Assembly (NCBI GenBank): GCA_023511915.1
Contig: JAIMAN010000017.1
Span: 1-47,056 of the forward strand
Direction: 5' to 3'
DNA: 47,056 nucleotides
Source: Armatimonadota bacterium
Lineage (GTDB): Bacteria; Armatimonadota; Fimbriimonadia; Fimbriimonadales; GBS-DC
Shown here piece by piece: positions 9,199 through 47,056 of this stretch. The position numbers and the translations under genes were made by a program. Below the pieces are notes generated by a model. That model was not told the DNA's origin. It made no database searches and saw nothing but the letters and a program-made list of their open reading frames with translations. Numbering within the stretch: position 1 is the stretch's first letter; each line of letters begins with the position of its first letter.

Positions 9199-9251
9199 GG
9201 AGTGCGGAAGCGGAGCTTCCGCCCACGCTGAAGCTAACGCTTCAGCACTCC
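9199..9251. repeat. Hairpin-pair repeat (family A)
   Basis: This 53-bp unit begins GGAGTGCGGAAGCG and ends GCTTCAGCACTCC. It is nearly identical to the copy inside tilS (6369-6420) in reverse orientation. It is followed after 20 bases by a family B repeat, and the same A-then-B order occurs at 17631-17763. Confidence 0.88.
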
Positions 9252-9271
9252 AAACAGGTCAGCGCAAGGCT

Positions 9272-9406
9272 CACCCCTCTCCCACGAGGTGGAGAGGGTC
9301 TGGGGGTGAGGGTGAAAGAAGCGTGCGCTCCCTGCGAACAGCGAACCCAAGCGATGTACCCTTATCAGCTGGAGGTGAGGGCGAAAAAGTGCGCTCCCCC
9401 TGCAGG
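9272..9406. repeat. Family B repeat plus a truncated second copy
   Basis: Bases 9272-9363 hold a palindromic start (CCCCTCTCCCAC/GTGGAGAGG), then CTGGGGGTGAGGG, and a conserved tail through CGTGCGCTC and AACAGCGAACCCAAG to GTACCCTT. The about 92-bp unit is closely similar to 17672-17763. Bases 9371-9406 (GGTGAGGGCGAAAAAGTGCG...) repeat only the middle of the unit. The stretch 8957-9412 holds no gene apart from the possible PIN remnant. Confidence 0.8.
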
Positions 9407-16194: not shown

Positions 16195-18066
16195 TTAGAA
16201 ACCCAGCGTGGTTAGGTTGACGCCCACCAGCAGCGCGCTGGGGGTGCGCCGCCAGAACAGGTACGGCTCCAAGCACCGATCGCGCCAGCCGAGAATCGCC
16301 TGCACATCGTACAGGTCGCGCCCCTCCAGGTCGTACTTGAGCAGCACGCCCAGCCGCAAGTTGCCCTGCTGAAACTCGGCGCGCAGGCTGGCTTCGCGTC
16401 GGGCGCGCAGCTGCTCGCTCAGGAACGGGCTGTCGCCGCGCGTGGACGCCCGCGCATAGCCCGCCATCAGCGTCAGCGAACTGGTGGGCTGCCAGAGTAG
16501 CTCCAGCTGCGGGCGCAACCACTGGTAGCCGCCGACACCCGCGTAGTGTGCGCAGCTCGCCCACAGGTGCAGGCGCAGTTGCCACGCGCCGCGCCTTAGT
16601 AGCGGCTGGAACCAGTCGCCTTCCAGCGCGAGTCGCTCGCGGGTGGGCGTGCGCTGTCCGTCGACGCGCTCGTTAAGGCTCCCGTAGCGCAGGCTCGCCT
16701 CGCCGAAACCGCCTGCGTACTGCACAGGCGCAATCAGCGCGAGTTCCATGCGCGAGACGCGCAGTCGCTCGCGCGGGGCGAGCAGCGGGCGCACATCGCG
16801 GGCGATTTCGGCGCGCAGGGTCAGCGCATCGACGGCAGGCGCGCGCTCAGGGCGCACGCGCAGGTTATACAGCGCGGACTGCTCGAAGCGCAAACGCAGG
16901 TCGGGGTCGCCCAGCGCAGGTTCGTCGCCGCGCAGCGCAACGCCGACCGCCGCGCGCACTTCGGGAACCGCGCGCAGGTAGCTCGCCGCCGACGCCTGCA
17001 GCAGCGCGCGCTCGCCCAGCGGCAGCTCCAGCCGCACCCGCGCGCCCCAGCCCGTCTCCGCGCTGTAGACAGGCGACGGCAGGCTGACCACCTCCGCCGT
17101 CTCGCCCACGCGCACCGTCAGCTGCGGCAGGCTGGGCAGCGGTTGCCCGTAGACGAACAGCCGCGCGTTGCGCAGGGTCAGCCGCGCCCCACGCGCCAAG
17201 CGCACGCGCCCCGCACGCACCTGAATCGGCGGGCGGAACGGGTCGCAGGTGGAGACCACCACCGCGCGCGCCGTGAAGTCGGTCAGGTCGCCCTCCAGCA
17301 ACGCGGCGTCTAAATAGACGCCCAGCACATTCGCCTGCACGCCTTCGAACCGCCCGCGCGCCTGCCCGTAGAAATACTCGCCGCGTCGCCCCGTCAGCGC
17401 GCCCTGCTCGGCGAACAGACGGAACGGCTCCTCGCTGCGCACAAGCTCTGCATCCGTGTCCAACAGCAGCCGCTCGCCTTCCAGCCTGCGCCCCTGATAC
17501 TCCACGCGCACCTTGCCCGCCAGTTCCAGCAGCAGCCCGCCGTCGGGCGTGCGGGTTAGCGTGTAATCAGTCGCGCGGATTTGGAGCGCGGAGCCCTCAC
17601 CCCCTATGTCCCCCTCTCCCGCCCTGCGGTCCGCCCACGCTGAAGCTGACGCTTCAGCACTCCAAAAACGGCTCCCCTCGCCCACACAGTGGGAGAGGGG
17701 CTGGGGGTGAGGGCAAAACGGCGTGCGCTCGCTGCAAACAGCGAACCCAAGGGATGTACCCTTGTACCAATTGCGTGGGCAAAGCTTATAAAAACAAGCG
17801 CGACTGGAGACCCCCTCCTTAAGGTTCCCCCTGCGAGCAGGGGGAACCGAACGGGCGCGCGTCTCGGTTCCCCTCGCGAAGCGGGGGGAACATGCAGGAG
17901 GGGGGCAATTGTGAACTCTGTCTGTTCGGTTGGTATTATCAGGAACACCCCTCTCCCACAGGGTAGGCGAGGGGATGGGGGTGAGGGCAAAACAGCACGC
18001 ACCGCACGCCATCGCCAGCAACGCGCCCCACACGCCCAACCCTATCCGCCAAGCCGACCCACGCAT
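16195..18066 (-). CDS. OstA/LptD-like envelope protein with about 130 in-frame repeat-derived codons
   Basis: The protein begins with a signal peptide (1-27) and, from about residue 160, reads as an OstA-type protein: IRATDYTLTRTPDGGLLLELAGKV, then YFYGQARGRFEGVQANV and a long beta-strand-rich C-terminus that looks like an outer-membrane barrel (LMAGYARAS, LLKYDLEGRD, final Phe). It is short for full LptD. Residues 28-158 are encoded by stacked repeats (17593-17985), including a whole MITE, with no stop or frame shift. A TATAAT box at 18080-18075 is 8 nt before the ATG. It may act in LPS transport or organic-solvent tolerance (inference). Confidence 0.75.
   Translation of the reverse strand: MRGSAWRIGLGVWGALLAMACGACCFALTPIPSPTLWERGVPDNTNRTDRVHNCPPPACSPRFARGTETRARSVPPARRGNLKEGVSSRACFYKLCPRNWYKGTSLGFAVCSERTPFCPHPQPLSHCVGEGSRFWSAEASASAWADRRAGEGDIGGEGSALQIRATDYTLTRTPDGGLLLELAGKVRVEYQGRRLEGERLLLDTDAELVRSEEPFRLFAEQGALTGRRGEYFYGQARGRFEGVQANVLGVYLDAALLEGDLTDFTARAVVVSTCDPFRPPIQVRAGRVRLARGARLTLRNARLFVYGQPLPSLPQLTVRVGETAEVVSLPSPVYSAETGWGARVRLELPLGERALLQASAASYLRAVPEVRAAVGVALRGDEPALGDPDLRLRFEQSALYNLRVRPERAPAVDALTLRAEIARDVRPLLAPRERLRVSRMELALIAPVQYAGGFGEASLRYGSLNERVDGQRTPTRERLALEGDWFQPLLRRGAWQLRLHLWASCAHYAGVGGYQWLRPQLELLWQPTSSLTLMAGYARASTRGDSPFLSEQLRARREASLRAEFQQGNLRLGVLLKYDLEGRDLYDVQAILGWRDRCLEPYLFWRRTPSALLVGVNLTTLGF
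17591..17763. repeat. Family B (inverted part), A half-copy and full B, inside the LptD-like gene
   Basis: Reading plus-strand: an inverted B fragment (GCCCTCACCCC...CCCCTCTCCC) at 17591-17622, the right half of family A at 17631-17663 (GCTGAAGCTGACGCTTCAGC then ACTCC), and a full B unit at 17672-17763 matching 9272-9363 through the GTACCCTT end. The B unit runs straight into the MITE-like element. Confidence 0.85.
17764..17936. mobile_element. MITE-like element, copy 2, within the LptD-like coding sequence
   Basis: The 173-bp copy has ends GTACCAATTG and CGGTTGGTAT. It shares the arm pieces TATAAAAACAAG and GACCCCCTCCTTAAGG with copy 1, and has two internal hairpins (GGTTCCCCCTGC/GCAGGGGGAACC; GGTTCCCCTCGC/GCGGGGGGAAC). 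Its centre is almost identical to the 31-kb copy. It is read in frame on the minus strand as part of the LptD-like protein. Confidence 0.85.
17942..17990. repeat. Family B repeat, signal-peptide side of the LptD-like insertion
   Basis: CCCCTCTCCCAC, then GGCGAGGGGATGGGGGTGAG and GGCAAAAC repeat the palindromic head of family B. On the minus strand this gives LTPIPSPTLWERG directly after the signal peptide. Confidence 0.8.
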
Positions 18067-18107: not shown

Positions 18108-19100
18108 GTGAAATACGCAGTCGCTATCGTAGGCGCAACGGGCGCGGTCGGTCAGGAACTGCTACAGGTGTTGGAGGCGCGCCGATTCCCTGTGCGCAGT
18201 CTGCGCCTGCTGGCGTCGGAGCGGTCGGCGGGCACAGAGCTACCCTTCTGCGGCGAGCGCGTGCGCGTGGAACGCCTGCAGCCTGACTCGTTTCGCGGCA
18301 TCGATATCGCCTTCTTCTCAGCGGGCAGCGCACGCAGCAAGGCGTTCGCGCCCCTCGCCGTGCAAGCGGGCGCGGTCGTCATCGACAACTCCTCGGCGTT
18401 CCGCATGCAGCCCGAAGTGCCGCTGGTCATCCCCGAAATCAACCCTGACGCCATCCGCGCCCACCAAGGGATTATCGCGAACCCGAACTGCTCGACGATT
18501 ATCATGCTGATGGCGTTGGAGCCGTTGCGTTGCCTCTCGCGCATTCGGCGGATCGTGGTCAGCACCTATCAGGCGGCGAGCGGCGCGGGCGCACGCGCAA
18601 TGCAAGAGCTGCTGGACGCCACCCGCGCGTACCTGAGCGGCGAGCCGTACACCCCGACCGTGCTGCCACACCCCTACGCCTTCAACCTCTTCTCGCATGA
18701 CTCCGCCATCGGCGAGGACGGCTACAACGAAGAGGAGCGCAAGATGATTCAGGAGACGCGCAAAATCTGGGGCGACCCCGAAGTGGCGGTCTCGCCGACC
18801 TGCGTGCGCGTGCCCGTGCTGCGAGCGCACAGCGAAAGCATCGTCGCCGAGCTGGAGACGCGCCCGCCGCTGGATGCCATCTACGCGGCGTACCGCGCCT
18901 TCGAGGGCGTGCAGCTGGTGGACGACCGCGCCCGCAATCACTTCCCGATGCCCATCGAGGCGACCGGGCGCGACGAGGTGCTGGTCGGGCGCATCCGCTA
19001 CGACGCGGGAACCCCCAACGGCGTTGCGCTGTTCGCCTGCGGCGACCAACTGCGCAAGGGCGCCGCGCTGAACGCCGTGCAGATTGCCGAGCGACTGTAG
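18108..19100 (+). CDS. asd: Aspartate-semialdehyde dehydrogenase
   Basis: This NADPH enzyme converts aspartyl phosphate to aspartate semialdehyde for lysine/diaminopimelate, threonine and methionine synthesis. The N-terminal nucleotide motif AIVGATGAVGQELL (residues 4-17), SAGSARS, the catalytic Cys in ANPNCSTI and the substrate-binding SPTCVRVPVLRAHSE segment are all present. At 330 residues it is full length. The start is GTG at 18108, 8 nt after a TACAAT box. It converges on ftsY with 2 bases between the stops. Confidence 0.97.
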   Translation: MKYAVAIVGATGAVGQELLQVLEARRFPVRSLRLLASERSAGTELPFCGERVRVERLQPDSFRGIDIAFFSAGSARSKAFAPLAVQAGAVVIDNSSAFRMQPEVPLVIPEINPDAIRAHQGIIANPNCSTIIMLMALEPLRCLSRIRRIVVSTYQAASGAGARAMQELLDATRAYLSGEPYTPTVLPHPYAFNLFSHDSAIGEDGYNEEERKMIQETRKIWGDPEVAVSPTCVRVPVLRAHSESIVAELETRPPLDAIYAAYRAFEGVQLVDDRARNHFPMPIEATGRDEVLVGRIRYDAGTPNGVALFACGDQLRKGAALNAVQIAERL

Positions 19101-46890: not shown

Positions 46891-46904
46891 AGGTTTTTTG
46901 CGAG

Positions 46905-47048
46905 CATGCCTACTCGCGGCGTTGACGAGCAGGGTATTTCTGCCGCCATGCGAGCGAGACGCTCGCGCTCCCAGCACGCGCGACGCTGGGAACGCGGGCG
47001 TGCCTGCTCGCGGCGTTGCCGAGCAGGGCATTTCTGCCGCCATGCGAG
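46905..47048. repeat. Two 50-bp direct repeats with a palindromic spacer
   Basis: Bases 46905-46954 and 46999-47048 differ at four positions, with a period of 94 bases. Each contains CTGCTCG...CGAGCAG-type dyads and TTTCTGCCGCCATGCGAG. The spacer has GCGAGACGCTCGC and CCCAGC...GCTGGG palindromes. The open frame on the minus strand here is only the translation of repeats. The array may continue past the window. Confidence 0.85.
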
Positions 47049-47056
47049 CCCCCCGC

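Follow-up and report, generated by a model that had tools for sequence, protein, structure and literature searches.

Mobile palindromic repeats apparently read in frame within an LptD-like protein and other conserved proteins of a hot-spring Armatimonadota lineage

An LptD-like gene of an Armatimonadota bacterium (Fimbriimonadales) carries, directly after its signal peptide, a stack of mobile repeats that is open in the frame of the gene, and the genus seems to translate selfish DNA into protein on an unusual scale. The gene (623 aa; positions 16195 to 18066, minus strand), recognized from its open reading frame, a fold comparison, and orthologs in the genus, lies in a window of 47,056 nucleotides, the whole stretch of DNA analyzed here, which is part of a MAG of hot-spring origin (G000; 2.73 Mb, 122 contigs). 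Sequence comparison within this genome revealed that residues ~24 to 158 consist of dispersed repeats only, in a single open frame, and that an intact domain of 465 aa follows them. The explanation that we regard as very probable is that MITE/REPIN-like selfish DNA was inserted in frame at the junction between the signal peptide and the OstA domain and has been tolerated as a disordered linker. A tolerated linker of repeats resembling the RPEs of Rickettsia had been one of the options raised in an earlier note on this DNA, and it is now supported by orthologs without these residues, by the predicted disorder of the insert, and by in-frame copies in other genes.

The stack is composed of several repeat types, all on the minus strand. 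Next to the signal peptide, a REP-type head (17948 to 17996, encoding CCFALTPIPSPTLWERG) is 86% identical to positions 17674 to 17722 and has more copies at 9273 and 33366. It is followed by a MITE (17762 to 17938) with copies genome-wide whose ends were compared; it has terminal inverted repeats of ~13 bp and an inner REPIN-like core of ~100 bp made of two hairpins in inverted orientation. Repeat element A (~17630 to 17765) has copies with 80 to 85% identity on contigs C89, C86, C69, C100, and C66 and at positions 9218 to 9363 of the window, and the tail of repeat B (~17593 to 17629), with copies 87 to 93% identical elsewhere, stops where the mature domain begins. Full-length MITE copies measure 170 to 177 bp and have the termini TAATACCAA(T)CGC..GCG(A)TTGGTATAA, while most of the remaining copies are the inner ~100-bp unit alone. 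The element is short, has terminal inverted repeats and many copies, and contains no transposase ORF; the copy ends showed no clear target-site duplication, with a TA as a possible one at most. The whole repeat segment had 82 matches across the genome, the core palindrome GGTTCCCCCTGCNNGCAGGGGGAACC occurs at 78 sites, and most core copies are dispersed in DNA with no coding-like ORF running through them. The earlier note had confined the repeats to positions 17593 to 17985 and assigned residues 1 to 27 to the signal peptide. That interval is indeed all repeat and a signal peptide is present, but repeat homology extends to 17996, ~11 nt further upstream, so that CCFA, the last residues of that signal peptide, are already repeat encoded. 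Additionally, two direct repeats of 56 nt, 94 nt apart and 91% identical, lie at 46900 to 47049 of the window, near a partial copy of a MITE end.

The repeat-free part of the signal peptide comprises residues 1 to 23 (17998 to 18066, minus strand), with a hydrophobic core at ~8 to 23 and an equivalent in the orthologs. It is located beside the divergent gene asd (18108 to 19100, plus strand; Pfam Semialdhyde_dh/dhC), an arrangement common to the genus relatives that fixes the start position of lptD. The conserved mature domain (16198 to 17592, minus strand), an OstA/LptA-like jellyroll leading into a beta-barrel, was recognized from orthologs and structure comparison. In an AlphaFold model built with nine orthologs (pTM 0.42, a modest confidence), a signal helix spans residues 5 to 25, residues 16 to 158 have a pLDDT below 50, and strands start at 162; the repeat insert is predicted to be disordered (pLDDT ~25) between the signal helix and the OstA/LptD fold. 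The top 13 rows of a PDB comparison were all LptD chains (Z, 15.2 to 20.5), model residues 157 to 275 matched LptH/LptA (Z, 12.7 to 13.1), and Foldseek also ranked LptD first. The model has the architecture of LptD, with an N-terminal OstA/LptA-like jellyroll and a C-terminal barrel. Among curated sequence models, the window protein had no NCBIfam LptD match and no LptD match above cut-off; DUF3769 gave a weak signal in 9 of 14 members (best E value, 0.00057) and fell below the cut-off for the window protein. We use the guarded label LptD-like because LptD chains lead by fold, yet the curated sequence models are without a match of that strength.

Orthologs of the LptD-like gene were found in 12 of the 13 genus genomes, G000 included. 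Ten ortholog rows pass from a signal peptide of 20 to 35 residues straight into ALxIRA with no repeat segment; consequently, residues ~24 to 158 are an insertion, and residues 28 to 158, as delimited in the earlier note, are not conserved ordinary protein. The nearest sister species (G010, closed genome KatS3mg018), whose mature domain is 84% identical to that of G000, has at the identical junction a different open stack, with ~170 aa of repeats between the signal peptide and SPLQIRA. The two stacks have some repeat types in common (73% over 122 nt) and are not alignable throughout, so they may not be fully independent; judging from the sequences, a shared origin followed by turnover and a separate entry are both possible. 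In G013, a member of a second genus, other repeats keep the frame open at this junction for at least 161 codons, up to the contig end. That contig ends inside the repeats, and no link from this stack to an upstream signal peptide was found. In the genus of G013, asd is not adjacent to the LptD-like gene, and the contig with speE ends too. On G013 contig C165, a spermidine synthase match breaks off abruptly after residue 198 of the query, and the ~79 bases at the end (L082:1-79) read as a different protein, a possible misassembly. Among the viral contigs searched, no relative was found.

The recurrence of stacks at the junction in three species could also mean that the insert is kept for a function, either as an RNA hairpin array tuning lptD expression or as a spacer selected for OstA placement, and the first 474 nt are predicted to fold very stably (-250.6 kcal/mol; z, -5.7). 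However, palindromic repeats fold strongly anywhere, the stack contents vary among species, ten ortholog rows are without any stack, and other in-frame copies are located in enzyme loops, which makes such a function unlikely. A search against Rfam gave no match to known structured RNA.

The absence of stops over 393 bases, claimed from the first reading of the sequence, was borne out: 17593 to 17985 is stop-free in the frame of the gene, and the remaining five frames contain 1, 6, 2, 3, and 3 stops. The sister frames contain 3 and 2 stops in the G010 stack and 7 and 7 in the G013 stack. Single copies of the ~100-nt core are themselves stop-poor, 136 of 300 frame-copies (45%) being open, which explains why such DNA is tolerable at all. 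Among windows of 393 nt centered on nongenic copies, 7 of 312 frames were open (2.2%), and around nongenic copies the values were 3 of 312 (1.0%) for 484 nt and 2 of 300 (0.7%) for 522 nt. Chance was thus rejected as the source of the open frame, since windows of whole-stack size are open in merely 1 to 2% of frames despite the stop-poor core, and the frame looks maintained. The G000 stack was picked for its openness, and those of G010 and G013 were not. That all three stacks run open into the mature domain would be unlikely without selection on the frame.

In-frame core copies occur in eight further genes of G000, identified by inspecting ~65 core-repeat places for spanning frames with coding-like flanks. 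Since genic copies were sought via open spanning frames, copies that break a frame would go undetected. Five of the carriers were identified by Pfam, namely alr (L111:464-1738, minus strand), murE (L131:561-2168, minus strand; relatives' loci L139 and L140), murD (L130:580-2070, minus strand; relatives' loci L166 to L168), prmC (L129:843-1778, plus strand), and ppx/gppA (L137:1817-2881, minus strand). The other three are a GlcE-like oxidase and a PMT-type glycosyltransferase, both named by resemblance, and a membrane protein. Compared with solved homologs, the inserts fall in gaps between aligned blocks in MurE (query 264 to 337 versus 263 to 299), MurD (225 to 305 versus 224 to 265), Alr (150 to 213 versus 144 to 156), and PrmC (105 to 146 versus 104 to 113). 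In the genus alignment, the Ppx insert and the MurD insert (~50 aa in G000) are absent in G010 and other relatives. The inserts of the LptD-like protein, Ppx, MurD, and MurE are therefore RPE-like in being in frame in conserved genes and without a counterpart in orthologs; those of Alr and PrmC were judged in this respect against solved homologs. Furthermore, the core is read in at least four registers or orientations across the host genes, and it is consequently the frame, and not the peptide itself, that is kept.

The same sites hold different repeats in different species. In MurE, the loop is occupied by the MITE core in G000, by a REP of another kind (LTPAPSPKPLGEGDAGGE) in G010, and by a further repeat set (LPSPPGPLSRVAGEGEQ..NTPSPTPWERGQGGE) in G009, and it is empty in G001 and G006. 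The MurD loop contains the core in G000 and PSPHERGQGGEG in G004, with REP-like peptide fragments in G004, G006, and G008. A second repeat insert is present near residue 70 of the G009 MurE. In five relatives (L100, L101, L102, L108, and L109), the Ppx/GppA frames stop at ~100 to 130 residues, with unrelated sequence after; frame breaks caused by repeats were considered here and rejected, as these look like truncated genes in which a remnant is joined to unrelated sequence.

A disrupted gene, whether pseudogene or misassembly, whose open frame is accidental has to be weighed in a MAG, since repeats draw chimeras and 45% of the frame-copies of the stop-poor core are open. It is nonetheless very unlikely, given the intact 465-aa domain after the repeats, the like situation in the closed genome of G010 and in G013, and the in-frame copies in eight more conserved genes of G000, among them murD, which is single-copy at the threshold used.

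The in-frame start codons of the LptD-like gene are at residues 1, 10, 12, 16, 19, 128, 186, and 188. Those past the repeats, GTG 186 and GTG 188, are within the OstA domain, which begins at ~157 to 162, and a start at 186 would remove the first OstA strands. The genus relatives start close to the divergent asd, as G000 does, and keep the signal peptide there; an outer-membrane barrel requires one. Although many REPs at the 5' ends of ORFs may be noncoding (PMC3733652), a true start past the repeats, which would turn these into 5' untranslated sequence and leave a protein with no signal peptide, as the earlier note had also proposed, is very improbable and was discarded, because the next starts lie inside the conserved OstA domain, an in-frame signal peptide lies upstream at the position seen in relatives, and none of the three different stacks closes the frame. 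In the frames of FliO, FliP, and FlgI (L069:496-2174 and L110:79-1344, both minus strand), the membrane or signal segment is preceded by residues that repeats encode, and these first stretches may be noncoding 5' untranslated sequence.

If selfish DNA was indeed inserted in frame and tolerated, small palindromic mobile repeats of several families, rich in GC and poor in stops (the 177-bp MITE with its REPIN-like core and REP-type elements), would have entered the signal-peptide/OstA junction successively. Every surviving insertion or rearrangement would have kept the frame open, since export needs the signal peptide joined to the OstA-barrel domain, and the product of the stack would be an unstructured spacer of ~131 residues after the signal peptide. 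In general, such nonautonomous palindromic DNA would insert widely, the copies that break essential genes would be lost, and in-frame copies at permissive sites would persist as disordered spacers. We infer that the protein is made with its spacer, that is, that the repeat stack is translated, and the spacer is probably neutral or nearly so. The repeats were presumably moved by some transposase. All genomes of the genus, rich or poor in the repeat, have a well-matched Y1_Tnp (RAYT-type) gene of ~250 aa, with a weaker second match in three; at the loci checked it is not flanked by the repeat, and its locus in G000 (L155; C111:22861-23181, minus strand) had no repeat match within 1.5 kb. RAYT as the mobilizer was accordingly not supported, and this unflanked gene, present regardless of repeat number, separates the system from REPIN/RAYT pairs, although the inner ~100-bp core, with two inverted hairpins and tens of copies, resembles a REPIN.

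Mobile palindromes that code for protein have been described above all in Rickettsia and Wolbachia and in a minority of REP-rich genomes. Thus, in-frame selfish repeats are a known kind of phenomenon, represented by RPEs and intragenic REPs. RPEs lie in frame in conserved genes of Rickettsia (PMC2229807, PMC10969869), and a guanylate kinase carrying one is active (PMC2229807). The repeats described here are like RPEs in being palindromic elements of ~100 to 150 bp, in frame in unrelated conserved genes whose orthologs lack them; the likeness claimed is one of organization. They differ in belonging to another phylum and a hot-spring lineage, in the use of at least four core registers or orientations, and in the stacking of several families to 131 aa. 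RPE-bearing proteins are apparently still functional. A survey of GTAG/CGTC REPs described intragenic units in several genomes, most of them in Opitutus terrae and R. conorii and also in Thauera, with clusters encoding 43 to 82 aa and, in recB of Xanthomonas, different REPs at roughly one site (PMC3733652). As in those cases, REP dimers or clusters are found inside ORFs of known proteins. However, the stacks here reach 131, ~170, and at least 161 aa, the core has no GTAG/CGTC tag evident by eye, and an LptD-like gene and genes for cell-wall synthesis are among those hit. The first impression that the stack is much larger than known parallels therefore holds against this one survey (43 to 82 aa; PMC3733652). 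The element is also similar to prokaryotic MITEs such as ERIC, Nezha, and Correia (PMC10969869), which are short, nonautonomous, and present in many copies, with inverted repeats and terminal TA. Overall, the differences from known cases are longer stacks, mixed families, recurrence at the same site with different repeats, and the lineage. In the literature searched, which covered few subscription papers, we found no report of translated repeats in Armatimonadota, and the stack length, the recurrence at given sites, and the phylum appear unreported there.

A broader reading, which we advance tentatively, is that in this Fimbriimonadales lineage unrelated repeat families re-enter permissive sites of essential envelope genes, are kept in frame, and form a general and continuing source of new protein sequence. 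The sites would be the LptD signal-peptide junction and the loops of MurE and MurD, and it is conceivable, if somewhat doubtful, that they provide species-specific spacers that selection may use. These results place apparently translated palindromes in essential genes of a thermophilic hot-spring lineage, in stacks that exceed the surveyed record. Inserts at the same site with different repeats across species are natural replicates with which one can ask where in a protein random sequence is tolerated and whether selfish DNA feeds protein evolution.
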